From positions 1 through 64,000 of the forward strand of contig JAHLLM010000001.1 of assembly GCA_020444175.1 (NCBI GenBank): 64,000 nt of DNA. The letters run 5' to 3'. The notes under the pieces were generated by a model. That model was not told where the DNA came from. It searched no databases and saw only the letters and a program-made list of their open reading frames with translations. Below, piece after piece: positions 6,015 to 28,815 of this stretch (the first letter of the stretch is position 1; each line of letters starts with the position of its first letter). The translations under genes were made by a program, and so were the position numbers. The stretch comes from Desulfobulbaceae bacterium (GTDB lineage Bacteria > Desulfobacterota > Desulfobulbia > Desulfobulbales > SURF-16).

Positions 6015-9000
6015 TTATTCCCCAATTTTGCCAAAGTCACCGACAAAGGCGGCAATGTCTGCCGCATCAACCACGTTGTCAAGGTTGATATCCGCGGCTG
6101 AACTTTCGCCAGGTCCAAGGGGTCCGTAATCACTGGCATAAGCCGAGATGAAGAGGGCGATATCCTTGCCGTCGTGGTCGTTGTCAGCATCAATATCGGA
6201 AAACACGTAACAGGACGCTTCATCAACCAGTCCGTCACAGTCATTGTCTTCACCGTCGCAGACCTCCTGTTCAGGCGCAATAACCCCGGCATCACAGACC
6301 ACATCCATGCCGTCGGGCTGACAGGCGTAATATCCCGTATCAAAACAGATCCCGGTTCCCTGTGAGCATGGCTGGCCAAGCAGAGGAAAATCTTCATCCG
6401 TGTCGCCGTCGCAATCATTATCCGCCCCATCGCACAACTCAGCCGCAGGAGAGCCGGGAACAGCATCGCAAAGAACGTTGAGTCCGTCGCCACTGCAGAC
6501 CCAGGTCCCGGATTCAGCGCAGGAACCGACGCCTTCGGTGCAGCTCTGGCCGAGTGACGGAAAAGCATCGTCACTGCCGCCGATACAGTCGTTGTCACGG
6601 CCGTCGCAGACTTCCGTAGCTGCCGGGGAGACAGAGCTATCGCTGTCATCGCAGTCACCGCCTGCGGCAACATAGCCGTCCGGTTGTTCGCAGGCCCGGA
6701 TGAAGTCAGCCGGGTCTCCATATGTATCAAGATCACTGTCCCGGTAATAGGTCTGCAGGGCGCAGAAGCTCGCTGAAACTGCTCGGGCCTCCTGCATGGA
6801 CATCGTGCAGGTCAGTTCCGTGCCGCTGCAGGCATCGCTCCAGCCGACAAACTGCGAATCAGGGTCCGGGGCAGCAGTCAGGGTCACATCAGCACAGAGA
6901 CTTAACTCAACCGAGCAGGAGGAATCGCAGAGGAGCTCTCCCGGTTCACTTGTGACAACACCGCGCCCACTGCCTTCCACCGTCACGTCAAGGGGCAAGG
7001 TATCGCCGCTGCCTCCCTGATACTCAAAAGCCCCCATGTCACAGTGAGAATAACTGCCCGAACCGCTGTCCATTGTATTGGGATCATCAAAACGGCCATT
7101 GCCTCCCATGTCAAGGGAGGGAGCCGTGCTGCCGAAGCCGGCATCAATGGCTGCGGAGCACTGCAGCAGGAAGAAATCCCCTGCCGTCGGATCCTGGTAG
7201 CGGGGGTCGGCGGCAATATTGCCGTCCGTTCCGGTTGGGTCCGTGAGCCCCAGGTAGTTCAGGCCGCTCGCAAAGACATTGTTATGGGAGAAGACACTGG
7301 TTGAACCAGTATTATCAAGCTGGATACCGGTCAATGTCGAATCACTGACAATATTGTTGACAAAGCTGTTTCCCGATCCTGCTTCATAAATGCCCACACT
7401 GTTTGCCCACAGTGTGTTGTTGATAAAAAGAATGGACTCCCAGCTGTAGTCGACGGAATAGGCGCAGCTCAACCCCACGGAACTCTGGGACACGATATTG
7501 TTATACACCCTGCAGTCCTGACCGCCGTATTCGAACAGGATACCGCCGTGCTGATGATCGGTGGAAATCTGACTCAAGATATTATTTTTGACAACAAAAC
7601 CCGTGGCGCTGAAATCCCGGGTATCTTCAATAAGACTGATGCCGTCCCCCTTAAAACCGATTACGTTGCGCATCTCGTTGCCGTCAACCTGGGAGTTGAG
7701 CACATTGCCGTAAAAGGTAATTCCCAGCATGGAGTAATTGCTTTCAACGAGCGAAGTCTGCAGATTCTCCAGATGATTCGCCGAGACAAAGGTTTCAGAT
7801 GTATCATCTTCAAAGAGAATGCCGGACCACTTGAGAGACTGACCATTTGCCGTGTCATCGCTTAAATCGCTCAGAATGTTGTTGCTGACAGTCACCGTGT
7901 CGGCCGGAGAATAAAAGATAACACCGGAATATTCTCCGGACAGATCGGTAAAAGAGTTCTCCTTGACCTCCAGATTAAAGACCGAATCCCAGAAGAGAAG
8001 ACCGTTGTAACCCAAATCCATTCCTGAAAAGCTGTTGCCACTTATCTGGCCCGTGGCGACCTCATCCCAGAAGATGAGCCCTGTTTCCCAGCCGCTCAGA
8101 TTACTGAAAATATTATCAGACACTGTAATGCCACTGACGTCTCCCCAGATGTGCATGCCACCACCACCGTCAAGATCGGCAAGGGTATTGCCATGGATGG
8201 TGAGGGAATCAGAATTATCCCAGAACATGATACCGTGTCCGCCTTCATAGAGGAAATCCGAAATCTCGTTTCCTTCCATGCCGACACCGCTTGCCGTATC
8301 CCAGAACTGGATGCCGGCGTACCACCAGTCATTATCTGTTCCGTCACCAGTGACCTGATTGTTGTTCACCCAGATGTCCGAGGCCGGGCCATACCAGTGC
8401 AGACCGGTCCAGGAGTCTATGAAAATATTGTTTTCCGCCGTAATGCCGTCAGCTTCCTCATTAAACTCCACACCACTGCCGCTGTCGTTGCCGATAAAGG
8501 TATTATTTCTGAAGCTGACGCCCAGGGCTTTATTATCAAACCAGACACCGCCGTAGTCATTGCCTGTCACCCTGTTTTCCTCAAAGATCAGGCCGGTGAT
8601 ATCCATATTGGCGATGAGTGCGCCCCAGGCGGCATTGGTGAAGGTAAAGCCGCGGATGGAAATATTTTCACTGCCGAATCTGCGCCGCCACTGAACGCCG
8701 TCCCAGCTTATAGGATTCAGAGCTGAGCCCATGACAAAGATAGTCGACTGACCGAATCCCCAGATGGAATCGATATGCTCATCATCAGGTGCTGTCATCT
8801 GAGTCCAGTCGGTGCCGTCATAATGGAGAATCGTGCCGTTGTTACCCACGGCATAGACATCATCCGCTGCCGTGCCCCAGACGTTGCGGAGCCACTCCGC
8901 AGTCGGGCAGGTCATGGCGGTCCAGGAGCTGCCGTCATAATGGAGAATCGTACCGTTGAGGCCAACGGTAAAAATATCGGAGCCTCCCGTGCCCCAGAGG

Positions 9001-10937
9001 GCGCTGAGCTGCTCGCTGTTATCGCTGGTCATCTGGGACCAGGAAACACCGTCGTAATGCAGAATCTTGCCCCAGACGTCAACGGCGTAAACATCATCAG
9101 AGGCTGTGCCCCACACGGCGTTCAGGGAATCGGTAAAGCCGTGGGACATCTGCGACCATGAGAAGCCGTCATAATGGAGAATCGTGCCATAGCCGCCCAC
9201 GGCAAAGACATCATCCGCCGCACTGCCCCAGATATCATAGAGGAAGCTAGTGGTGTTGCTTGTCATCGCACTCCATGAGCTGCCATTGTACTGCACGATG
9301 CGGCCCAGGGCACCCACCGCCATGACATTATCCGAAGCCGAGCCCCATACTCCATAGAGCTGAGCAAGCGGAGTGGTCTGCCTGCTCCAGAACGTTCCGT
9401 CATAATGGTAAATATTTGACGAGGTACTCACAGCGAAGATGTCGTCCTCGGCCAGGGCAAAGACATCCAGGATGCCGTCGCCATAGCCGCCGCTTGACAT
9501 GGCATAATCCTCGCCACCCGCATCAAGCACCGCAGGATGGGCCACAGGATCCCTGCCGCTGACATCTGTTCCGGTATTTGCGGCAGGATACCCACCCACC
9601 AGATCAAGTCCCTGGCGCAGGGCAACAATCTCGTTGTAGGCACCCTCCTTGACATGGATGGTCTGCAGGGTGACTCCGTCCACCTCATTGATGGCAGCCT
9701 GGATTGTTTTCTTGGCCGCATCCCAGGAGATGCCGGAGTTTGTATCATCACCGCCAGCCTGATCCACAAAGAGATCCGCACCGTTCAAATCAAAGAGAGC
9801 GCTCACTGACAAGGCCCTGGTCATTGTCACCACGCAGTCGCCTGATCCATAGCAGCCGCCGCCGAACCAGCCCCTGAAGCCTGAGCCTGCATCCGCAGCG
9901 GCGGACAGGGTGATTTGTGCGCCGACATCATATACTTCCTGACAGTCCCCGCCGCAGTCAATGCCCGCCGGACTGCTGGTTATGGTGCCTGTGCCGCTGC
10001 CTGTCCTGGAGACGGAAAGCGTGTTGTTCAGTTTGGTAAAGGTCGCTGTCACCGAACGGTCTGCGTTGATGACAGTCGTGCATTCCCCTGTACCGGAACA
10101 GTCCCCGCCGCTCCAACCGCTGAAAGCCGAACCCGCCTCGGCAACGGCAACAAGGGTTACCTCGTTTCCCTCGTTGTAAGACTCACCACAGTCAGCGCCA
10201 CAATCAACAAAACCGTCGGTGCTGACAACCGTGCCGGTGCCGGTACCCGCTTTGGACACAGTCAAGTCATGCTGAATAAGGTTAAAATTAAAATATACAT
10301 TCCCAGTACTCCAGCTAACCGTATAGGAAAACTCTTCGCCGCCCACTGCATAGGAGCCCTGATCCGGAATCAGACTAAAGGTTATTTCCGTTCCTTCAAC
10401 AAAAGTTTCCTGGCAATCCTCACCGCAATCGATTCCCGGAGGATCGCTGGTCACCGAACCGCTGCCTGAACCTCCGAGTATGGCGGTGAGAACTCGTGTG
10501 CGGGTAAATGTGGCGCTGACGTCGATCGGATTAGCAGTGATTTCGATCTGGCATGATCCGGTCCCAGAGCAGTCTTCTCCGGACCAGCCCATGAAAGCGG
10601 CGTTGGAATTAGGGGTAGCGGTTAGTGTCACCGTGGTTCCCAAAGGATAGAGGCCCAGGCAGTCGTCTCCGCAGAAAATGCCGGCAGCATCGCTTGTCAC
10701 CAATCCATCACCGCTGCCGATTTTCGTGACTGAAAGGGGAAACTGTTTGACGATCTCGTTTTCCATGTTACCCGAGCCGTCAAAGTCATAGGATATCCAG
10801 TCATCCCCGCCGTAATCGGCCTTCATGAGACGTCCGCTCTCATCATAGGTGTAGGTGACGGTTGCGCCATGGGCCTGAACAGCGAACACGGCCATAAAGA
10901 GGAGAAGTAAAATCGCGCGTGACAGTCGATAGTGCAT
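6015..10937 (-). CDS. Giant secreted beta-helix protein with propeller insertion, MopE-like and dockerin-like repeats
   Basis: A 1640-residue exported protein. The start at 10937 is chosen because it has a strong GGGAGG site; an upstream ATG at 10991 lacks one. Order: a Sec signal peptide; a short YD-repeat remnant (VTYTYDESGRLMKADYGG); four divergent InlB-B-type repeats with paired cysteines (for example GWSGEDCSGTGSC) to about residue 400; the start of a DUF1565-like beta-helix; about seven blades of 43-residue repeats with VWGTASDDVYAVG and GTILHYDG (about 480-750); a long parallel beta-helix (about 750-1250); a fifth InlB-like unit; MopE-type CDGxDNDCDGxxDE calcium or metal loops (about 1400-1580); and a dockerin-like EF-loop end (ADINLDNVVDAADIAAF). 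It probably acts at the cell surface. It lies 21 bp after the RHS gene, probably cotranscribed. Confidence 0.85.
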   Translation of the reverse strand: MHYRLSRAILLLLFMAVFAVQAHGATVTYTYDESGRLMKADYGGDDWISYDFDGSGNMENEIVKQFPLSVTKIGSGDGLVTSDAAGIFCGDDCLGLYPLGTTVTLTATPNSNAAFMGWSGEDCSGTGSCQIEITANPIDVSATFTRTRVLTAILGGSGSGSVTSDPPGIDCGEDCQETFVEGTEITFSLIPDQGSYAVGGEEFSYTVSWSTGNVYFNFNLIQHDLTVSKAGTGTGTVVSTDGFVDCGADCGESYNEGNEVTLVAVAEAGSAFSGWSGGDCSGTGECTTVINADRSVTATFTKLNNTLSVSRTGSGTGTITSSPAGIDCGGDCQEVYDVGAQITLSAAADAGSGFRGWFGGGCYGSGDCVVTMTRALSVSALFDLNGADLFVDQAGGDDTNSGISWDAAKKTIQAAINEVDGVTLQTIHVKEGAYNEIVALRQGLDLVGGYPAANTGTDVSGRDPVAHPAVLDAGGEDYAMSSGGYGDGILDVFALAEDDIFAVSTSSNIYHYDGTFWSRQTTPLAQLYGVWGSASDNVMAVGALGRIVQYNGSSWSAMTSNTTSFLYDIWGSAADDVFAVGGYGTILHYDGFSWSQMSHGFTDSLNAVWGTASDDVYAVDVWGKILHYDGVSWSQMTSDNSEQLSALWGTGGSDIFTVGLNGTILHYDGSSWTAMTCPTAEWLRNVWGTAADDVYAVGNNGTILHYDGTDWTQMTAPDDEHIDSIWGFGQSTIFVMGSALNPISWDGVQWRRRFGSENISIRGFTFTNAAWGALIANMDITGLIFEENRVTGNDYGGVWFDNKALGVSFRNNTFIGNDSGSGVEFNEEADGITAENNIFIDSWTGLHWYGPASDIWVNNNQVTGDGTDNDWWYAGIQFWDTASGVGMEGNEISDFLYEGGHGIMFWDNSDSLTIHGNTLADLDGGGGMHIWGDVSGITVSDNIFSNLSGWETGLIFWDEVATGQISGNSFSGMDLGYNGLLFWDSVFNLEVKENSFTDLSGEYSGVIFYSPADTVTVSNNILSDLSDDTANGQSLKWSGILFEDDTSETFVSANHLENLQTSLVESNYSMLGITFYGNVLNSQVDGNEMRNVIGFKGDGISLIEDTRDFSATGFVVKNNILSQISTDHQHGGILFEYGGQDCRVYNNIVSQSSVGLSCAYSVDYSWESILFINNTLWANSVGIYEAGSGNSFVNNIVSDSTLTGIQLDNTGSTSVFSHNNVFASGLNYLGLTDPTGTDGNIAADPRYQDPTAGDFFLLQCSAAIDAGFGSTAPSLDMGGNGRFDDPNTMDSGSGSYSHCDMGAFEYQGGSGDTLPLDVTVEGSGRGVVTSEPGELLCDSSCSVELSLCADVTLTAAPDPDSQFVGWSDACSGTELTCTMSMQEARAVSASFCALQTYYRDSDLDTYGDPADFIRACEQPDGYVAAGGDCDDSDSSVSPAATEVCDGRDNDCIGGSDDAFPSLGQSCTEGVGSCAESGTWVCSGDGLNVLCDAVPGSPAAELCDGADNDCDGDTDEDFPLLGQPCSQGTGICFDTGYYACQPDGMDVVCDAGVIAPEQEVCDGEDNDCDGLVDEASCYVFSDIDADNDHDGKDIALFISAYASDYGPLGPGESSAADINLDNVVDAADIAAFVGDFGKIGE

Positions 10938-11012
10938 CCCGGCCTCCCGGAGTATATTCTTTTTTCTTGTCATTTGTATCTGGTTCATCATTTGACTTCA
11001 GCCCTGCCCTGC

Positions 11013-14000
11013 CTATTTCGGGATAAACTTAAGCCCGTCGCCGTAATCAGACGACGAACCAGATGAATTCATTTCCTTCAAATCGCGGAGCAGTTCGTCA
11101 AGTTCTGCTGAAAACTCATCTGCTTGTTGTTTTCCCTTGAGATAGCCTTCCTTCCTGGCCTCCATGACCATGGCCTCATATTCGGCTTCATGGGCATAAC
11201 CGTAGTAGACCATGTCATAGAAATAGGTCTCAGCCGCATCGTTCATCAGGGATATACCGGTTCCGAGCAGGGGGTTGCCGAAACCGTTGGTGGCGGAATT
11301 CGCCATCATCACCTCGGCGTTTAAAGCCTCCCAGGCCTTGATATCACCCTTGGCCAGATCAACAACCATCATGCCGGGAATAAAGGACGTCGGCCCCTTT
11401 GATGAATGGTAGGCATATTCCTTTTCCACCAGATTGACGGCGTTTACCCCGTAGTCGATGACCTGCAGGGTGTCTCCCATCATTTTGGTGGCCTTTAGTC
11501 CTGTTTCAGCGGCATCCAGTCCGACCGAGGTGAGTCCGGATGGTTTCACGGTATTCATGACAATACCGCTGTTGGTTGTGGTACTGCTTACCACCTTGGA
11601 GCTCTCGACCCCATACTTCCAGGCCTCTTTCAAACCAACCTGGGTAACGTCGTTGACTATGCCCATGCCATCGCAGCGGGCACCATTGGTCCAGAACGAC
11701 TGATCTTCCTCCATGCCCATGGGGTCAAGCCAGTTAACCGGATCACCGGAGGTATAAGAATAGAGGTTGGAGGCTGCCATAACACCGATGGGATCGGGGC
11801 TGATAAATCGCTTCAGGCCGGGATCATAGTAGCGGGCCATCATGGACGAGAGCCCCGTCTCGTCATATTCCACCCCGCGTGTACCGATAAACTGGAACGG
11901 ATTATCTATGCTGCCGGTGCCGGACAGCACCTTGCCGTAGGGCGAATACAGATATGAAGCGATAAGGGTCTCGGAATTGTCACTCACCGAAAGAACACTG
12001 CCCCGTTCATCATCATGATAGACGTACATGTTGCCGGACCCGTCCAGGCTGTAGAGCAGCTTGCCGGCATGGATGAAGTAGCGGCTGATCGTGCCGTCGC
12101 TGCCGTAGGTGCAAAACAACCTGCTGCTGTCCCGCAGATAATTCGTCATCACACCGTTATGATTTTTCGCTACCCGTCCACCTTTGCCGTCATAGGCGTA
12201 GGTGGTGGTATTCGTGCCCTCGGAACGGGAAAGAAGGCGACCCATCGCATCATAGCTAGAGGTGGTTGTTGCGCTTCCTGTTGTCTGGGAAACAAGGCGA
12301 CCGTTTTCATCCCAGAGGTAATCGGTCTGCACTCCGCTCAACTCGGAGCCTGTCACCTGATTCAGGGCATTAACCGTGTAGCTTGTATTCTCATCAGCCA
12401 GGGTGGCAGGCACCTCAACGCCGTCCACCGTGGCAATCTGGCCTGCTGCGTTATAAGTATAGGTAAAGCTGTGGAGCACACTATCATCTGATTTCAGGTG
12501 ATTCATGGTCTGCAGGCGGCCGGTTGCATCATAGGTGAACAAAGTTTTGGTCGCGTTGACATTGGTCACCTGCTCCACCCGGTTCAGTACGTCATACTGA
12601 TAGGTCGTCTGATTGCCAAGCCAGTCGCTCATGGTAACAAGACGCCCCAGGGTGTCATAGTCATAGGTCAGCACCTTGTCACCTGGATAGGTTATGGTTT
12701 TCACCCTGCCTGCCGGGGTATAGGTAAAGGAGACGGCTTTGCCGTTCCTGTCGGTGAGCGATGTCCTGCGGCCCAACAGGTCATAGGTCATAGTCGTGGT
12801 GCCGGATGGATCCTGCACGGAAAGCATATTTCCGGCCCCGTCATAGCCATAGGAAAGGGTATTCCCTTCGCCCCAGGAAATCTGCTGCAGGCGGCCGGCG
12901 GCATCATAGCCATAGGTCAATTCCTCGCCGGAACGCAGGATTTTACTGACCAGGCGGCTCAGGACGTCATAGGAAAATGACTCCTCTCGTCCCAGGGGGT
13001 CGCGGCTGGTGCTCAACCGGTTCAGCGCATCGTAACGGAAATGCCAGGCCGCCAGATTGCTGTCCGTCAGCATGATAAGCCTGCCGTTGAGTCCATAGGT
13101 CGAAGAAAGCCGCCCCTGTCCGGCATGGGAAATTTCTTGCTGCTGACCGAGAGCGTCATAGCTGAAATTAAGCATCCTGCCCTCCCCGTCTTCCGCGCCG
13201 GTGATGCGATCAAGTTTGTCATAGTAATAGGTGCTCACGTCTCCGGCCGGGTCAGTGACCTTCTGCAGCCTGTTTCCCTCGTCATAGACAAATGTCCAGG
13301 TATGACTCAGATTGTCCGTTATGCTCGTCATATTGCCATTGGCGTCATAGCCGTAACTCTTTGCCTGTCCCAGTCCGTCCGTGACTGCAGTGAGCCGGTT
13401 TGCCTTGTCGTAGGTAAAGGTGGAGGTGACATTGTCAGGGTCGGTCACAGTATTGAGATTACCGTCTGCATCATAGGTATAGATGGTCTCTCCTGCCAAG
13501 GGATCAATAATTTTCGTTATCCTGTTCAGCAGATCGTATTCGTAGGAAGTGACGGCCCCGGAAGGCTCAAATGTCCTGGTCAGCAGATTGTTGTTATCAT
13601 CATAGGAATAGGAGGTCACCCGGCCGGCCGGGTCGGTCCTGGTCAGCACATTTGACCGGCTGTCATAGGAAAACTGATAATCTCCCTGATCGTCGGGCAA
13701 GATCATCCGGGTCAGACGACCGACATCATCTCTTTCAAAAGTAGTTACATTACCCAGCGGGTCGGTTGCCGTGCTGACAAGACCTGCCGCATCGTAGGTA
13801 AAGGTCCGGCGATTGCCCTTGGCATCGGTAAAGGTGAGCGGCAGCCCTCTGCTGTCGTGGCTCATGGAGACGGCACGCCCCAGCACATTGGTCATTGAGG
13901 AGAGATTTCCCAGTCCGTCATAAGTCAATGAGGTAACAGAGCCCTCATCATTGGTCAGATTGACGGGCAGGTTCAGAGTAGTATCATACGTGACACTGAC

Positions 14001-15998
14001 ATCGACACCATGCCGTTTTTTTGAAAAAGTGAGACCGCCCTTGTCATCATAGCTCTGCAGCGAATCAACACCCTTTTTATCTGTCTGGCCAAGGCGTTGC
14101 CCCTTGTCGTTGTAGCGAAAATCTGCGACTCCCCCCTCTCCGTCAATAATTTTTGTGATGTTATGAGCCGTATCATAATAATGAAAAACATAATTGCCGC
14201 TGGGCGGGGTCATTTTCACCACGGTTTCAGAAGGGCTCACCGTGTATTCATAGGTGGTCACCTGGTCCAGGGCATTTGTCTGCTCCTCCACCCGTCCCTC
14301 GGCATCATACTGGTTGCGAATAGCGGGATGGCCCAAGGCATCGGTATAGGCCAGGACCCTGTGCTCGTTGTCATAGGAAAACTGCCTGCTCTTGCCGCCG
14401 GCGTCAATTATTTCTATAAGATCCCCTAAACCATCATAAATAAATGAGGCTGTATTGCCCGAGACATAGGGACTGGTTACGGCAATGAGTCTGCCCCCGG
14501 CATAATGAAAGAAGATCTCCCGTCCGGCAGAATCGGTAATCTTGTCAAGCTGACTGGAATGATTCAGAACAACTTGATTGTTATTGCGGTCCTGTATGGT
14601 GACAAGGCGGCCACTCCCGTCAAACAGATAACTTATCCCTCGAGGCAGGGCCAGGATAGAGCTGTCGGGATCAGGATGGGTGAAGACCGCGCCAGGCGTA
14701 TTACCGCCGTTTGCCTGATAGGTGCCGGAACCTGTGTCCAGAAAGGATTCAGTACGGCCATTGCCCCACTTGACTGTGGCAATGCCGTTTTCTTCCGTAA
14801 CAACAATATCATAGGAATGGCTCCAGCCGAACCCAAGCGTTCTTTCAGAGGCCGCGTCCTTTGAGTTATAGATAACCTTGAAGGCAAAGGGCAGAATAAC
14901 TCCTGGAAAAGAGAAAAGATTTCGGGAATAGACATAATTGCCGATACCGGGATGGACAGGATCAAAGGTATAGGGAATATCGCGGTCATCGCCAAAGGCC
15001 GTGCTTTCCGGAAGATCTGGTGGATCAACCGGGGTGAAGTAGACCGAAACGTTGTCGGTCGGACCGTTGGGGATGGCGGCCTGCACCGTAACATTGCCGG
15101 CAAGCCCACCGGAATGCAGGGAGGATTCCACATTGCCGTCTGCATCGCTTTTTTCGGAATCAGGCGAGACAAAGCCGCCGCCGGTGGTGATCTCAAAATC
15201 GACCTGCTGGTCTGGTATCTCCACTCCAGAGTCAAGATCATAGACCGCGGCGGTTAAATCAATGGAATCATCGGAACTGGTTGTGCCCGGATCGGCCGTG
15301 AGCCGCAGGCCGAGCTCGCAGGGCTGAGTGGTGCCGCTCACGGCATAGTAATCCGTTGCCGTGTCGCTCCAGCCAAGGGCGCCGAGCCCCCCTGAAAAAC
15401 CTGCCCCAAAAAGGTTCCAGGTGCAGGTGCCGCCTTTGGCCCGCAGGTGCAGAACAAAACCCTGATGACTGAACTCTTCAAGATTATCAGGCACATCCTC
15501 CCTGGTGTTGCAGCTGCCGGCGCCACCCCAGTAGAGGACGGAACAGTAACAGGTATCGGATATTCTGCTTCCCCAGCCCAGGGCAGGCTTTTCATCGATC
15601 TTCACCTCCCAGCGCACTGCACTGGCTGAGACAGACACATCCCAGGCCGAACTTGCCTTGGGCTCATAATCAACAAGCTCAAACAGACTGGAATCAAAAC
15701 CGATGCCGACACTGCCGGTACCTCCGGTCATCCAACCCCACTGGGTGCAGACCCAGCGCGGCAGCCCCACTCCGCCACCGACAATTTTCGCCGTGGCAGT
15801 AAGAATCTCGCCTTCCTGAACAATTTTCGGACTGATAGTAAGGGTTCCCCAGATCTGCTGCCACCAGAGCGCATTTTTAGTTTCAGGCGGAGGCCCCAGG
15901 GCCAACGAAGGTTGTACAGAAATGAACAGATTGATAAGTGTGAGAAGAGAAACAAAGGAGAATCGATAGAAAAAAGACGAAAAAAAGCTCTTTATCAT
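11013..15998 (-). CDS. RHS/YD-repeat secreted protein
   Basis: A 1661-residue protein with a Sec signal peptide (about residues 1-34). Residues 45-230 are a cohesin-like beta domain (VGIGFDSSLFELVDYEP). An Ig-like Big_1-type domain follows (about 240-335), then a DUF6531-type RHS entry domain (HPGIGNYVYSRNLFSFPGV) and some forty YD repeats of the form YDxxGRL. The RHS core lies near residues 1366-1426, including MARYYDPGLKRFISPDPIG and the closing DPMG. The 230-residue tail after the core is the variable region that carries the effector in polymorphic toxins. I recognise no nuclease or protease motif there, and no immunity gene follows. It is the first gene of a likely two-gene operon with the beta-helix protein. 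Function could be adhesion, toxin delivery or matrix. Confidence 0.88.
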   Translation of the reverse strand: MIKSFFSSFFYRFSFVSLLTLINLFISVQPSLALGPPPETKNALWWQQIWGTLTISPKIVQEGEILTATAKIVGGGVGLPRWVCTQWGWMTGGTGSVGIGFDSSLFELVDYEPKASSAWDVSVSASAVRWEVKIDEKPALGWGSRISDTCYCSVLYWGGAGSCNTREDVPDNLEEFSHQGFVLHLRAKGGTCTWNLFGAGFSGGLGALGWSDTATDYYAVSGTTQPCELGLRLTADPGTTSSDDSIDLTAAVYDLDSGVEIPDQQVDFEITTGGGFVSPDSEKSDADGNVESSLHSGGLAGNVTVQAAIPNGPTDNVSVYFTPVDPPDLPESTAFGDDRDIPYTFDPVHPGIGNYVYSRNLFSFPGVILPFAFKVIYNSKDAASERTLGFGWSHSYDIVVTEENGIATVKWGNGRTESFLDTGSGTYQANGGNTPGAVFTHPDPDSSILALPRGISYLFDGSGRLVTIQDRNNNQVVLNHSSQLDKITDSAGREIFFHYAGGRLIAVTSPYVSGNTASFIYDGLGDLIEIIDAGGKSRQFSYDNEHRVLAYTDALGHPAIRNQYDAEGRVEEQTNALDQVTTYEYTVSPSETVVKMTPPSGNYVFHYYDTAHNITKIIDGEGGVADFRYNDKGQRLGQTDKKGVDSLQSYDDKGGLTFSKKRHGVDVSVTYDTTLNLPVNLTNDEGSVTSLTYDGLGNLSSMTNVLGRAVSMSHDSRGLPLTFTDAKGNRRTFTYDAAGLVSTATDPLGNVTTFERDDVGRLTRMILPDDQGDYQFSYDSRSNVLTRTDPAGRVTSYSYDDNNNLLTRTFEPSGAVTSYEYDLLNRITKIIDPLAGETIYTYDADGNLNTVTDPDNVTSTFTYDKANRLTAVTDGLGQAKSYGYDANGNMTSITDNLSHTWTFVYDEGNRLQKVTDPAGDVSTYYYDKLDRITGAEDGEGRMLNFSYDALGQQQEISHAGQGRLSSTYGLNGRLIMLTDSNLAAWHFRYDALNRLSTSRDPLGREESFSYDVLSRLVSKILRSGEELTYGYDAAGRLQQISWGEGNTLSYGYDGAGNMLSVQDPSGTTTMTYDLLGRRTSLTDRNGKAVSFTYTPAGRVKTITYPGDKVLTYDYDTLGRLVTMSDWLGNQTTYQYDVLNRVEQVTNVNATKTLFTYDATGRLQTMNHLKSDDSVLHSFTYTYNAAGQIATVDGVEVPATLADENTSYTVNALNQVTGSELSGVQTDYLWDENGRLVSQTTGSATTTSSYDAMGRLLSRSEGTNTTTYAYDGKGGRVAKNHNGVMTNYLRDSSRLFCTYGSDGTISRYFIHAGKLLYSLDGSGNMYVYHDDERGSVLSVSDNSETLIASYLYSPYGKVLSGTGSIDNPFQFIGTRGVEYDETGLSSMMARYYDPGLKRFISPDPIGVMAASNLYSYTSGDPVNWLDPMGMEEDQSFWTNGARCDGMGIVNDVTQVGLKEAWKYGVESSKVVSSTTTNSGIVMNTVKPSGLTSVGLDAAETGLKATKMMGDTLQVIDYGVNAVNLVEKEYAYHSSKGPTSFIPGMMVVDLAKGDIKAWEALNAEVMMANSATNGFGNPLLGTGISLMNDAAETYFYDMVYYGYAHEAEYEAMVMEARKEGYLKGKQQADEFSAELDELLRDLKEMNSSGSSSDYGDGLKFIPK

Positions 15999-23801: not shown

Positions 23802-24365
23802 ATGGAACCACTTACCCTTCTCTTCATTGCCGTTGCTCTAGCCATGGATGCCTTTGCCGTGGCCCTGGCTGCAGGTGTAACCCTGCATCCGGTCAGCAAA
23901 AGACAGCTTTTCAGACTCGGCTTTCACTTCGGTCTTTTCCAGGGTCTGATGCCTATTATTGGCTGGCTGGCCGGTGTAAGCGTGCAATCAATGATCAGCG
24001 ACTATGACCACTGGATTGCCTTCGGCCTCCTCTCCTATGTCGGCGGCAAAATGATCCACGAGTCATTTGAAAATGATGACGAAAACGCCAAAACAGATCC
24101 CACCCGGGGAGCGACAATGGTCATGCTTTCCATTGCTACGAGCATAGACGCCCTTGCCGTTGGCCTTTCCCTGGCGGTCATCGGGGTCAGCGTCTGGACA
24201 CCGGCGCTGATAATCGGCATCACGGCATCAGCCTTCACTGTCACGGGAATGCTTCTGGGCGGCAGAATCGGCATGGTCTGGGGCAAAAGGGTCGAGGTCA
24301 TCGGCGGACTGGTGCTCATTGCCATAGGCCTGAAAATACTCTTTGAACATCTTCTGTCAGGGTAA
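23802..24365 (+). CDS. mntP: Manganese efflux pump MntP
   Basis: A 187-residue protein with six membrane segments in two repeats, the size of E. coli MntP (188). The conserved membrane aspartates are present in ALAMDAFAVALAAG (about residue 16) and in IATSIDALAVGLSLAV (about 108), and also FGLLSYVGGKMIHES. It exports Mn2+ across the inner membrane. No yybP-ykoY manganese riboswitch fits in the short upstream space. Its 3' end overlaps the 3' end of the opposite-strand E2-like gene by 9 bp. Confidence 0.93.
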   Translation: MEPLTLLFIAVALAMDAFAVALAAGVTLHPVSKRQLFRLGFHFGLFQGLMPIIGWLAGVSVQSMISDYDHWIAFGLLSYVGGKMIHESFENDDENAKTDPTRGATMVMLSIATSIDALAVGLSLAVIGVSVWTPALIIGITASAFTVTGMLLGGRIGMVWGKRVEVIGGLVLIAIGLKILFEHLLSG

Positions 24366-26360
24366 AACCCATTTCCCTGTTTTCATGTCGTAATGGTAAT
24401 CCATCTCCAGCGTAAACCGCTGTCTTCTGTTTTGCTCCTTGCACTGCATTTTAAAGACAAGATTATCACCTTCAACCTTCACAAATTGAATTGTCGGCTC
24501 AGAGAGTTCCGAGTTTGCAGAGGAAGGAAACTTCTTTCTGAAAATCTCTTCAAAATTTCTGTTGAGATAGGCAATTTTTTCCTGCATATCCTTCATGAAT
24601 CTATTTGTAGCCATTCTGTCACTTGCTTCTTTTCTTTTAGAGGCAAATTCCGTGTCATGGGCAAACGGACTGTTGTCAATCATGTCAACAAGTACCTGGG
24701 AAGCTCTGATGGCTTCTTCATAACGCTCCCCGGCCATAAGTTGAGCCTCCCGTTTCTCTTCCCTGTTGATCGCTGCGGTTAATTTTTTCTTCCTGATTTC
24801 ATTAAGGGATACCCCCTGAGCTCCACCAGCTTTCCGGGCTCGCTCAAAAAGCATTTCACTCTGATTCAGATTACTGATTGCGCTGTCCCATCGCTCTGCA
24901 CTAAAATCCTGCACAGCGGCCAGATAGGTGGAGTTGAACTTGGCCACATCGCGATACCTCTTTATTTCTTCAAGACGTCCTTTCAAATCTATTCCGGCCT
25001 TGGAGGAAATTTCTATGGCACTCTCATAATTCTTGACAGCATCACTCCATTTTTTTGCCTTGAAAGCCATATCGCCGCGCTCACAGAATGACAAAAACTC
25101 AGCTTTTCCCATTGATCTCCGAATTTCTTCTTCCAGGGACCGAACTGAAGAATCTTTTATAATAACAAGCAGACTCAAGGCTTTCTGATAGAGGGCTATG
25201 GCCTCATCCCATTTTTTTTCAGTTAGTTTGAGCGCACCATTGTCCATCATTGCCCGCATCCTGGCGGAGTGAAGTAATTCCTCAAGACCATCTACCGGGA
25301 AAGGAGAAATTTCAGGGCCCAATTTTTTTATTTTAGCCAAAGCCTTTTGAAACTCTTCTGCCGCTTCCATCCACTTTTCCTGGGCAGCTTTTTCTTTTCC
25401 CGAGGCGATCAATTCCATGGCGGCTTTACTCTCCTTCTGCTCCAGCGGAGTCATGTATTTGCCGTCAACCAGAACAGCTCCCTTCATTCCCTTTACAAAT
25501 TTCTCCGTGCTGGCTGCTTTTTTGATTTCAGTCAGCATCGCCTTTTTTTCCTGGCCCCGGATAAAACGCACACCAGCCAACATGGCTTGTGTTTTTTTCA
25601 TCAAAACATCAGCTTCTTTGAACTGATTCTGAGCGAGCAGGGTCTTGGCCTTTTGCCAGTTATCTACAGCACTGTCATAACTGCGCATATCAAGATAAAA
25701 AAGTCCTCCGGCCAGCAACCCAGACACGAGAACAACAGAGACACCGATAAAAAGTTTTTTCCCCCTCTTCCCCTGTTGTGCCTCTTGGGGAACGGCAGGC
25801 TCACTTTTCCGAACAGCATCTTTTTTTTGTTCTACAACAGGTCCGGCATCCTCCTCTTTTCCAGTACCCGCACTATCATCCTCCTTCTCTTCATGGGGCT
25901 CCTGATAGGTAAAATCAACATCATCCAGAGGCAACTGATCAGCATTGCCCTGCACCCATTCAAGAGCCTTGGCGTTGAATACGTCTTCGGTACTGAAACT
26001 CTGGTACGTGATGAGCTTTCCGATGTGAATAATCAGGTCAGCCAGGGTAAGGGAGGGATTCCAGAAATCCCCTATGCAAATGGCATCAGGATCAAAATCA
26101 GGATGCAGTATGGGCGTGAGAGGTTTACAGTTGGGAGGAAAATGCGGATAGCCAAACGGCACCACAATCTGAACCCGGTGCGAACTTACCCTGATGACAT
26201 TCCCTTCATCATCATAGTTGAGTCCTTTTGCATGAAATTCAATCTCATAATTATTGGGCGGCTCTCCATCGGTGGAAATAATATGGATAGAGGGGGAATG
26301 TAAAAATTTTGCCTGGATATTTTCATATTCTTTGGCAAGCTGGTCTGTGGAAGTCGGCAT
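24357..26360 (-). CDS. Membrane-anchored E2 (ubiquitin-conjugating)-like protein with TPR-like periplasmic region
   Basis: A 667-residue protein. Residues 8-125 follow the UBC/E2 fold: strands around NYEIEFHAKGL and HRVQIVVPF, then YPHFPP (71-76), an HPD (86-88) in place of the E2 HPN, and AICIGDFW with Cys95 at the place of the catalytic cysteine. WNPSLTLADLIIHIGKLI then matches the E2 helix after W-x-P. A charged, low-complexity linker (about 150-200) leads to KRGKK and one membrane segment (about 203-222), predicting a cytoplasmic E2 domain and an extracytoplasmic C-terminus. The latter is about 400 residues of Lys-rich TPR-like helical repeats (EKKWDEAIALYQKALSL, AKKWSDAVKNYESAIEI) with a small beta-rich end. 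No E1, ubiquitin-like, JAB or RING gene is adjacent. Confidence 0.82.
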   Translation of the reverse strand: MPTSTDQLAKEYENIQAKFLHSPSIHIISTDGEPPNNYEIEFHAKGLNYDDEGNVIRVSSHRVQIVVPFGYPHFPPNCKPLTPILHPDFDPDAICIGDFWNPSLTLADLIIHIGKLITYQSFSTEDVFNAKALEWVQGNADQLPLDDVDFTYQEPHEEKEDDSAGTGKEEDAGPVVEQKKDAVRKSEPAVPQEAQQGKRGKKLFIGVSVVLVSGLLAGGLFYLDMRSYDSAVDNWQKAKTLLAQNQFKEADVLMKKTQAMLAGVRFIRGQEKKAMLTEIKKAASTEKFVKGMKGAVLVDGKYMTPLEQKESKAAMELIASGKEKAAQEKWMEAAEEFQKALAKIKKLGPEISPFPVDGLEELLHSARMRAMMDNGALKLTEKKWDEAIALYQKALSLLVIIKDSSVRSLEEEIRRSMGKAEFLSFCERGDMAFKAKKWSDAVKNYESAIEISSKAGIDLKGRLEEIKRYRDVAKFNSTYLAAVQDFSAERWDSAISNLNQSEMLFERARKAGGAQGVSLNEIRKKKLTAAINREEKREAQLMAGERYEEAIRASQVLVDMIDNSPFAHDTEFASKRKEASDRMATNRFMKDMQEKIAYLNRNFEEIFRKKFPSSANSELSEPTIQFVKVEGDNLVFKMQCKEQNRRQRFTLEMDYHYDMKTGKWVLP

Positions 26361-26697
26361 ATAAAAAAAATCCTTGAATATTTGACGGGTTCGCAGTTAT
26401 GCCCCTTGAGGATAAAAAACTCTGAAGCGTATCAAGACAGGCAATATAAAAAAACGATATGCGTGTCTGCAGTAATTATGTTTTTTTAGCGGAACTTGCA
26501 GAATTTGAACCAAAGAGGGTCACACATCTCTCTGAACAGATAGAAGCAGCTATAAAAATAATAGCCAATGACAGGAGTGAGAACAAGAGTTAAGGATAGA
26601 AACAACTAAAAAGAATACCTGATATCTTAAGAAAAATATGTTTTAGTAAGAGACTAAGCATGAGATTCCACATACCCAATCAAGCAGACAATGAATA
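26361..26697. other. Intergenic region between divergent E2-like and CNB-DUF4388 genes
   Basis: This 337-bp AT-rich space should hold both promoters. Apart from a possible 44-codon ORF (26459-26593), I see no repeat element or clear operator. Confidence 0.5.
26459..26593 (+). CDS. Possible 44-codon small ORF
   Basis: The frame ATG 26459 to TAA 26593 encodes 44 residues with protein-like composition (VFLAELAEFEPKRVTHLSEQ, then an amphipathic IEAAIKIIAND). No good ribosome site precedes it and no family is recognised. It points in the same direction as the CNB-DUF4388 gene. It could be a small protein, a gene remnant or chance. Confidence 0.3.
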   Translation: MRVCSNYVFLAELAEFEPKRVTHLSEQIEAAIKIIANDRSENKS

Positions 26698-27795
26698 ATG
26701 AGTTCCTTTAACGCAATATTCCAGATTATTGAAAATAAAAAATGTCCTCTCTATAAACTTGATGACATTCTCCGCCTCACGGACAAGGCCCTCTTTCCGC
26801 CGGGCAACAAACCTGTCTGCCTCATCCTTGCCAGGGAAATGACAGAACTGCTCTTTTCTCTCCTCTCCCAAAAATTTGACGATACGAGCAAGGATCTTAT
26901 TTTCAGCTGTTCAGGCTGCTCAGGGCTCATAAAATTCAAGATGAACCAGAGTGAAGCCGTGAGTGAGGACGAAGCATCCTTATCGATTTCCGAAATTTTC
27001 GGCAAGCGTATCAATGTACCACCCAATGCTGCGGAAGGAATAGATAAACTTCCCCTTTTCCAGGCCATGGAACGGAAAAATCTGGCCACTATTCTCTCTT
27101 ATTTCACCTACAGGCAACTTGAACCTGGTGTTGAGATATTCAGAAAGGGAGAAAAAGGCGACGATGTTATTATTATCCTGTCCGGCCGGGTAGCAGTGCT
27201 TGATGGCAATTTGAACATTGCCACCCTGAGCAGGGGTGAAATTCTTGGCGAGATGAGTCAGTTGACCTCACAGGCCGTCAGTGCAACGGTCAAGACCGTG
27301 GAAAAAACTGAAGTGCTGAGTATCAGCGGTGAAAACTTCAGAAAGGTCCTTGAAGAAAATCCATCTCTTTACCTCTATTTCCTCCGTCTGTTCAGTGAAC
27401 GGCTTACCAAAAGCAATGCGGCCCGTCTCCAGGAGGTTGCTTCCGCCATGAGCGGCACCCTTGATGAAATGCCCCAGGTCGAACTCTTCCAGGTCTTTCA
27501 CATGAATAACAAAACAGGCGTCCTGACCCTGGAACTCCCCAAGGGGGAAGCCACCATCGCCTTCAGGGAAGGTGGAATCATCTATGCCAGTTATGCCCGG
27601 GAAAAAAATCAGGATGCGATTTACGATATCATAGCCGAGAACAAGGGAGGGCGATTCAAATTCATCGCCGGTCTTTCAGTCCAGGATATGCAGACAGACG
27701 AAATCGGCGATTTTATGAAACTGCTGATGGATGGCCTGCGCAAGGTTGACGAGAACAACAGCCCTGCTGAAACAGAAGAGGACGACTCTCTTTAA
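26698..27795 (+). CDS. Cyclic nucleotide-binding and DUF4388 (PatA N-terminal-like) protein
   Basis: A 365-residue soluble protein. The N-terminal 110 residues are helical with a CSGCSGLIKF motif. Residues about 120-235 form a cyclic nucleotide-binding domain (FRKGEKGDDVIIILSGRVAV, then GEILGEMSQLTS; the phosphate-binding Arg is replaced by QAVSATV, so ligand binding is uncertain). Residues 250-350 are a DUF4388 domain (SGTLDEMPQVELFQVFHMN and GVLTLELPKGEATIAFREG). DUF4388 is common in Desulfobacterota and Myxococcota signalling proteins, often beside small GTPases or receiver domains. There is no DNA-binding domain. It overlaps the convergent next gene by 4 bp and is divergent from the E2-like gene. 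Confidence 0.85.
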   Translation: MSSFNAIFQIIENKKCPLYKLDDILRLTDKALFPPGNKPVCLILAREMTELLFSLLSQKFDDTSKDLIFSCSGCSGLIKFKMNQSEAVSEDEASLSISEIFGKRINVPPNAAEGIDKLPLFQAMERKNLATILSYFTYRQLEPGVEIFRKGEKGDDVIIILSGRVAVLDGNLNIATLSRGEILGEMSQLTSQAVSATVKTVEKTEVLSISGENFRKVLEENPSLYLYFLRLFSERLTKSNAARLQEVASAMSGTLDEMPQVELFQVFHMNNKTGVLTLELPKGEATIAFREGGIIYASYAREKNQDAIYDIIAENKGGRFKFIAGLSVQDMQTDEIGDFMKLLMDGLRKVDENNSPAETEEDDSL

Positions 27796-28616
27796 ACCCT
27801 TCCGGCAGGCCGCTTTTCTTTTCTGCGGAGGACGATCACGCCTAAGGCCCCGGAGCCCAGAAACCAGATCGCTCCGGGAACCGGGATTGCCGCCGGAGGC
27901 GGAGGATTGACGATACTTTCAAGAATAAAAGTTGAGCCATAGGAATTTCCAAGCCCCTGTCCTCCGTAATCAAGGACAAAACTTCCACTTCCCGTCATGA
28001 TATCGACCTGGAAAATTGTTGTCTCGGAAACACCGTAAAGGATACCGTTTTCTGCCGTAGCCAACCCAAAAACATCCTCATACCCAAAGTCTGTCCCGAT
28101 CACCGTCCCAGCAGCATTAGCGGTCAAGTCAATTTTTATGAGTTGTCCCAAATAGGATGACAGGTAGAGGTCTCCCTGGTAGAAAGCAAGGTCTCCGGCA
28201 GAACGATGACCGATTTCCCCATATACGGATGACGCTGCAGATATCGGGTCAATGGTATGCAGATACCTGTCTCCGGTTCCGGCGGCATACAGAGTTCCGT
28301 CATGGCCGAAAACAAGGGCATTGGCGTTTGGGATCCCATGGGGCCCGATGAGTTGACTTGCCGCATTATTTTCCGGATTAATCAGATACATATCAGTAAA
28401 GGAAATCCCGTAAAGCTCACCGGAAGGGGAATAGGCGATGTCCGTCATAATTACCGGCATCTGCCCGATAATTGCAACATCACCTGTGGCAATATCAACC
28501 GTTGCCAGTTTACGGTTGGCATCATGAACATAAAGATACGGGGCAGCAAAAAGCTCTCCGATGTAAGAGAGTGGAAAAAGGACAACAAACAGCAGGGCCA
28601 GCAATATTTTTTTCAT
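27792..28616 (-). CDS. VPLPA-CTERM-type exported protein with beta-propeller-like body
   Basis: A 274-residue protein. The start is ATG 28616 with GAGGAAGGGAAA upstream, giving a clean signal peptide (KKILLALLFVVLFPLSYIGE). The body holds repeated YSPSGELYGIS / GHDGTLYAAG / ENGILYGVS motifs, as in six- or seven-bladed DUF4394- or SMP30-like propellers. The C-terminus AIPVPGAIWFLGSGALGVIV followed by LRRKEK is a PEP-CTERM-class (VPLPA-like) sorting signal: motif, membrane segment, basic tail. Such proteins are processed by an exosortase, none of which is encoded here. The role is probably in extracellular matrix or surface. Confidence 0.85.
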   Translation of the reverse strand: MKKILLALLFVVLFPLSYIGELFAAPYLYVHDANRKLATVDIATGDVAIIGQMPVIMTDIAYSPSGELYGISFTDMYLINPENNAASQLIGPHGIPNANALVFGHDGTLYAAGTGDRYLHTIDPISAASSVYGEIGHRSAGDLAFYQGDLYLSSYLGQLIKIDLTANAAGTVIGTDFGYEDVFGLATAENGILYGVSETTIFQVDIMTGSGSFVLDYGGQGLGNSYGSTFILESIVNPPPPAAIPVPGAIWFLGSGALGVIVLRRKEKRPAGRV

Positions 28617-28815
28617 TTTCCCTTCCTCGCATGAATACTGTAACAAGATTAGTTACATTAAAATTATAATAATTACTCACAAAAGAAAAGAAAATTTTCA
28701 CTCACAGCTCCTACTATCAAATAGATAGAACTGTTTAAATATACGCCTTTATTTTTTGCTTTCCTGCAAGAAAATCAAAGGGAAGGATATGAAAATAAAG
28801 AACTCCTCTTTAATT

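Follow-up and report, generated by a model that had tools for sequence, protein, structure and literature searches.

Comparison with described E2 folds

Eukaryotic UEV or pseudo-E2 proteins (UBE2V, TSG101 and AKTIP) have a UBC fold without a conserved catalytic cysteine and act by non-covalent binding. Among bacteria, the E2 fold is found in the Bil (BilABCD) and CBASS (Cap2) systems, and inactive E2/RWD-like domains with a predicted protein-binding role have been described within operons for JAB, E1 and polyUbl proteins (Iyer et al. 2006, PMC1779556, row 6e). A literature search of limited scope retrieved no paper on a membrane-anchored family that combines an E2 domain with TPR-like repeats.

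Such a protein of 667 aa is encoded by an intact ORF in the window, i.e. the whole stretch of 64,000 nucleotides analysed here (Table 1), and its gene is single-copy in the genome of 5.4 Mb. The protein shares the bacterial E2 fold with Bil and Cap2 and differs from these systems by the absence of a linked Ubl, E1 or DUB gene and by its motif, which in BilB is CEHH. The domains described by Iyer et al. are operon-borne, whereas the window family is encoded apart from such genes and beside a gene for a DUF4388 protein. Similar to the UEV proteins, the family has a UBC fold without a conserved catalytic cysteine and is here proposed to have a binding role. In contrast to them, it is bacterial and membrane-anchored, some of its members possess the cysteine and no ubiquitin is known for it. 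The protein is probably a transmembrane adaptor that works with the product of the divergent gene and whose binding arm is a non-catalytic E2 domain of Ubl-operon descent.

Table 1 Features of the E2-TPR locus (positions within the window)
Feature	Position	Strand	Evidence or remark
E2-fold/TM/TPR gene, 667 aa	24357..26360	-	E2-domain homologues in 23/58 related genomes, own included
UBC (E2) fold domain, residues 1-150, predicted cytoplasmic	25911..26360	-	Pfam UQ_con, AF2, Foldseek/VIA matches to E2s
HPD, residues 86-88, where E2s carry HPN	26097..26105	-	Asp for the oxyanion Asn in 82/84
Cys95, E2 catalytic position	26076..26078	-	Varies across the family: C/R/K/A/H
Linker, residues 151-200, acidic, low-complexity	25761..25910	-	Many relatives with a 200-300 aa acidic/TPR-like insert instead
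TM helix, residues about 203-222, predicted N-in	25695..25754	-	Lys/Arg-rich N-terminal flank
TPR-like helical solenoid, residues 223-610, predicted periplasmic	24531..25694	-	Pfam TPR; AF2 pLDDT 91.3; Foldseek TPR matches
C-terminal beta-strand domain, residues 611-667	24360..24530	-	Common to E2-less paralogues
Intergenic stretch separating the E2 gene from the divergent partner gene	26361..26697		Divergent arrangement conserved
Candidate partner, 365 aa: four-Cys N-domain, cNMP-binding-like, DUF4388	26698..27795	+	Pfam DUF4388 4.7e-21, cNMP 2.8e-17; neighbour in 61/77
Partner N-domain, residues 1-105	26698..27012	+	C16, C41, C71 and C74 conserved without exception (62/62 partners)
Partner cNMP_binding-like domain, residues 139-221	27112..27360	+	Canonical phosphate-binding Arg absent
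Partner DUF4388, residues 252-353	27451..27756	+	Pfam

Elsewhere in the window, two adjoining giant ORFs lie on the reverse strand (6015-15998), one for an RHS-repeat protein (17 RHS, DUF6531, Big_1) and the other for a protein with beta-helix, MopE metal-binding and InlB-like repeats. A DUF6923 protein with a PEP-CTERM-like end is encoded at 27792-28646, also on the reverse strand.

Fold and catalytic residues of the E2 domain

The N-terminal domain is certainly a true UBC fold with a match far above chance, as had been proposed in the first-pass annotation from sequence patterns. The whole protein matched Pfam UQ_con with an E-value of 1.1e-5, and the isolated domain exceeded the curated cut-off of this family. 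Searches of PDB sequences retrieved UBE2M (1.2e-5 with phmmer, 8e-8 with the family profile), and the best 60 matches of the phmmer and profile searches were almost all E2 enzymes. An AlphaFold model of residues 1-150, calculated with 19 homologues as input, reached a pLDDT of 92.5 and a pTM of 0.89. Fold searches with this model yielded an E-value of 2.5e-7 in Foldseek and, for UBE2S, a Z-score of 13.8 in VIA-align, with E2s throughout among the matches listed. Residue Cys95 was aligned by phmmer to the catalytic cysteine of E2 enzymes (HPDFDPDAICIG versus HPNIDLEGNVCLN in UBE2M), and the motif upstream of it is HPD, which in canonical E2s is HPN.

The same first reading had taken the retained cysteine as a mark of conjugation and had named its invariance as the point to be examined. 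Homologs maintain the fold, not the cysteine, an outcome that the first reading had listed as refuting its proposal: across 84 distinct E2 domains, mostly from Desulfobulbales, position 95 is occupied by Cys (44), Arg (30), Lys (7), Ala (2) or His (1). Arginine occurs even in two proteins (L038 and L039) that belong to the clade of the window protein and have the same architecture. In 82 of the 84 domains HPN is changed to HPD, by which the oxyanion Asn is replaced by Asp, and residues P34, G70, P72, P76, H86, P87, W100, N129 and A132 are invariant. In a tree for which positions 78 and 95 had been masked, five changes are required at position 95 and at least three between Cys and other residues, all of the latter forced by starred branches. 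Within clades the position is nearly fixed (Cys in 36/37, Arg in 28/30, Lys in 7/7; in the window's clade Cys in 7/9), a pattern more readily expected of a binding surface than of a thioester site. Since it is constrained by clade and yet variable, residue 95 does not qualify as a family-wide thioester nucleophile. The family hence has neither the conserved catalytic cysteine nor the HPN of active E2s and resembles UEV proteins in its UBC fold without a conserved cysteine, while the window protein itself retains Cys95. A disulfide or metal pair formed by C78 and C95 was considered and rejected, as C78 occurs without C95 throughout the Lys clade and in two of the Arg members.

Membrane topology, architecture and distribution

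A single TM segment is predicted for the window protein, at the site where the first-pass annotation had placed it, and 79 of the 81 TM-bearing homologs likewise contain one. Lysine and arginine are enriched on the N-terminal side of the segment in 67 of these 81 proteins, which implies an N-in orientation with the E2 domain predicted as cytoplasmic and the remainder as periplasmic. The proposed layout, in which a single TM helix connects a cytoplasmic E2 domain with a periplasmic scaffold, is supported accordingly, the periplasmic location of the TPR and beta part being predicted from charge statistics. The TPR-like repeats already recognized by eye were confirmed by Pfam, the AF2 model and Foldseek. 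In the model of residues 200-667 the helical solenoid is followed by a terminal four-strand beta domain that had been missed. Fold searches with this part gave generic TPR or helical matches (Z about 9) and no more specific relative.

Two architectures were distinguished: one with a short linker, to which the window protein belongs, and one with an acidic/TPR-like insert of 200-300 aa before the TM segment. In addition, the TM, TPR and C-terminal beta region of the E2 form recurs in paralogues that lack the E2 domain; the annotated neighbours of these paralogues (FtsH-like, NrfD, cytochromes, U32 peptidase) provided no functional lead.

A gene with the E2 domain is present in 23 of 58 related genomes, including the window's own, and at 153 loci in public genomes. 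The 80 loci kept came mostly from bacteria with a name or bin of the Desulfobulbales type, and members occur in cultured Desulfofustis, Desulfogranum and Desulforhopalus as well as in cable bacteria (Electrothrix). The family is one of sulfur-metabolising bacteria, widespread within one bacterial order; a phylum-wide scan detected it in 12 of 395 genomes, two distant members (L156 and L157) among them. A search of plasmids gave no match to the whole protein and one marginal match to the E2 domain alone (E = 0.8), and the viral contigs searched contained no match to the E2-TPR protein.

The divergent gene as candidate partner

The divergent gene upstream of the E2 gene, passed over in the first-pass annotation, is the sole conserved neighbour among the mapped E2 loci. 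It occupies this position in 61 of the 77 loci for which 1.5 kb or more of sequence upstream of the E2 gene was available. Judged by strong N-domain matches in the 58 genomes, both genes are present in 19, the partner alone in none, the E2 gene alone in four and neither in 35 (Fisher p 9e-12, a value that ignores phylogeny). A conserved divergent neighbour can mean mere co-regulation, and from synteny and co-occurrence the encoded protein is a candidate partner.

The four-Cys N-domain showed a weak match to TIGR04076 in one member (E = 0.005) and no convincing relative in the PDB. The C-terminal DUF4388 is taken by us to correspond to the PATAN domain. A cNMP_binding domain is present in some partners only. 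CRP-type cNMP sites carry a phosphate-binding arginine; this residue is missing in the partner domains wherever the motif is readable, and binding of cAMP or cGMP by the partner is therefore doubtful. A second copy of the four-Cys/cNMP/DUF4388 protein is encoded in the window's genome (L189:9448-10545) next to genes that look like those for a molybdopterin-type oxidoreductase, a Rieske protein and cytochrome b. Such paralogues also occur in genomes without the E2 gene, and no E2 or TPR relative was found in the neighbourhoods of the partner paralogues.

The type of partner varies with residue 95. Where a partner was found, Cys95 proteins are accompanied by a long, cNMP-containing form in 34 of 35 cases and Lys/Arg95 proteins by a short form in 24 of 26. 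The count of partners is ambiguous at L037, which ends at a contig edge, and at L081, which is a long branch. This pattern reflects two or three evolutionary events and is confounded by phylogeny; as it comprises two independent pairs, no significance is claimed.

The same observations bear on a simpler explanation, in which the E2 domain serves in the cytoplasm as a plug or folding domain without a dedicated partner and the divergent gene is merely co-regulated from a shared promoter region. The link between the two genes consists of synteny and co-occurrence, the TM-TPR part has E2-less paralogues, and the partner is absent in some members, among them the two Ala95 members (G031 and G057), which keep the E2 gene. 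Against it stand a non-enzymatic surface that is strongly conserved (FGxPHFPP, HPD, W100, N129, A132) and the clade-by-clade match of residue 95 with partner architecture, and we regard this explanation as fairly unlikely.

Search for conjugation machinery

No E1, ubiquitin-like or JAB gene adjoins the E2 gene in the window, in agreement with the first reading. A defence effector is likewise missing beside it, and the locus differs in these respects from Bil, CBASS and other defence systems with an E2. The genome-wide search that had been suggested yielded one UQ_con protein and neither Prok-JAB nor YukD in the window's own genome, where divergent Ubls could escape such searches. Two clear ThiF proteins were detected, one encoded beside thiG and the other a MoeB/ThiF-like protein of 280 aa, and both look metabolic. 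No YukD-type modifier was found across the 58 related genomes, and PADLOC reported no defence-system match. Prok-JAB was also considered as a gene that accompanies the E2 gene across genomes, and this was discarded: strong JAB matches show a scattered distribution and are absent from the own genome and from several others with Cys95.

The near-invariance of Cys95 in the large clade (36/37) and its presence in most of the window's clade (7/9) make activity in these lineages possible. Their proteins could be active membrane-anchored E2s that receive a divergent Ubl from an unlinked E1, the Arg and Lys lineages having lost activity. The E2 fold is intact in the AlphaFold model, ThiF-like proteins exist in the own genome, and some active E2s lack HPN, since BilB has CEHH and UBE2Q is without the HPN triad (PMC11354881). 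Nonetheless, an active enzyme is distinctly unlikely in view of HPD in 82 of 84 domains, of Arg in sister lineages with the same architecture, of a genome devoid of YukD and Prok-JAB whose strong ThiF matches are the thiG-associated and the MoeB/ThiF-like protein, and of mapped loci at which no conjugation gene adjoins. A more elaborate version, very unlikely in our judgement, has the Cys95 lineages employ an active tethered HPD-E2 together with a hitherto unrecognised modifier and an E1 that is either unlinked or metabolic, the E2 activity being gated by the cNMP partner that nearly all of them keep. Between the two options left by the first-pass annotation, the evidence favours a protein-binding relative of E2s, and the loss of the cysteine in many relatives, the HPD motif and the lack of YukD-type modifiers in the genomes searched speak against conjugation.

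PATAN proteins of cyanobacteria bind the pilus motor PilB (PMC10519157; PMC7690835). On this model the pair would control type IV pili or another machine of the cell surface and couple the motor to the envelope TPR scaffold; we consider this highly improbable, and no pilus genes were present among the annotated neighbours.

Operon-borne relatives and proposed origin of the E2 domain

Two E2 proteins encoded in bacterial Ubl operons belong to the same E2 subfamily as the window family. In the first, from another genome of the same phylum (L156), HPN and the cysteine are kept; the second, also with HPN and Cys, is encoded on the Crinalium plasmid pCRI9333.03 (L216). The profile of the window family scored 133 bits for L156 and 56 bits for L216 versus 35 bits for the highest-scoring eukaryotic E2 of the PDB, and the signature N129, A132, W135 and P144 is common to both proteins and the window family. 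Unlike the latter, they are not membrane-anchored TPR proteins and are encoded together with Ubl, E1 and JAB.

The operon in the first genome (L156:3904-17842) comprises genes for a YukD-like modifier, a ThiF E1, JAB, FHA and prokaryotic RING proteins, an E2 with zinc ribbon, DnaJ, AAA, a subtilase and a trypsin-like protease, to which inspection by eye added a Ser/Thr kinase. On the plasmid (L216:7239-10716), ThiF, two near-alike small ORFs that we read as YukD-like, the E2 and an MPN protease follow in a row.

The other distant member (L157:7254-10418) is an E2-TPR-TM protein of 1054 aa in which the TPR-like repeats precede the TM segment. It has kept HPN and has no cysteine at the catalytic position, where a Val stands at or beside the Cys site or, in another alignment, an Asp. 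Membrane forms lack HPN, Cys or both, whereas both operon forms possess the two. This pattern points to an operon E2 as the probable ancestor of the membrane forms, which would have lost the catalytic residues piecemeal, with a rooting that depends on long branches.

Proposed role and implications

For the non-catalytic adaptor favoured here, the E2 fold of an operon family with YukD-type Ubl, E1 and JAB would have been converted from an enzyme into a cytoplasmic binding module. The periplasmic TPR and beta domains would bind an envelope protein or assembly, and the E2 domain the four-Cys/DUF4388 partner or a target of this partner. In this manner, the adaptor may link the state of the envelope with cytoplasmic signalling, presumably in this direction.

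The candidate partner and the variation of residue 95 with partner type make the adaptor idea directly testable. The fold or a retained cysteine is a poor ground for annotating E2-TPR proteins as ubiquitin-conjugating enzymes. If the proposed role is true, a bacterial E2 fold has left Ubl conjugation and now forms the cytoplasmic portion of a membrane-spanning protein, in parallel to the eukaryotic UEV proteins.
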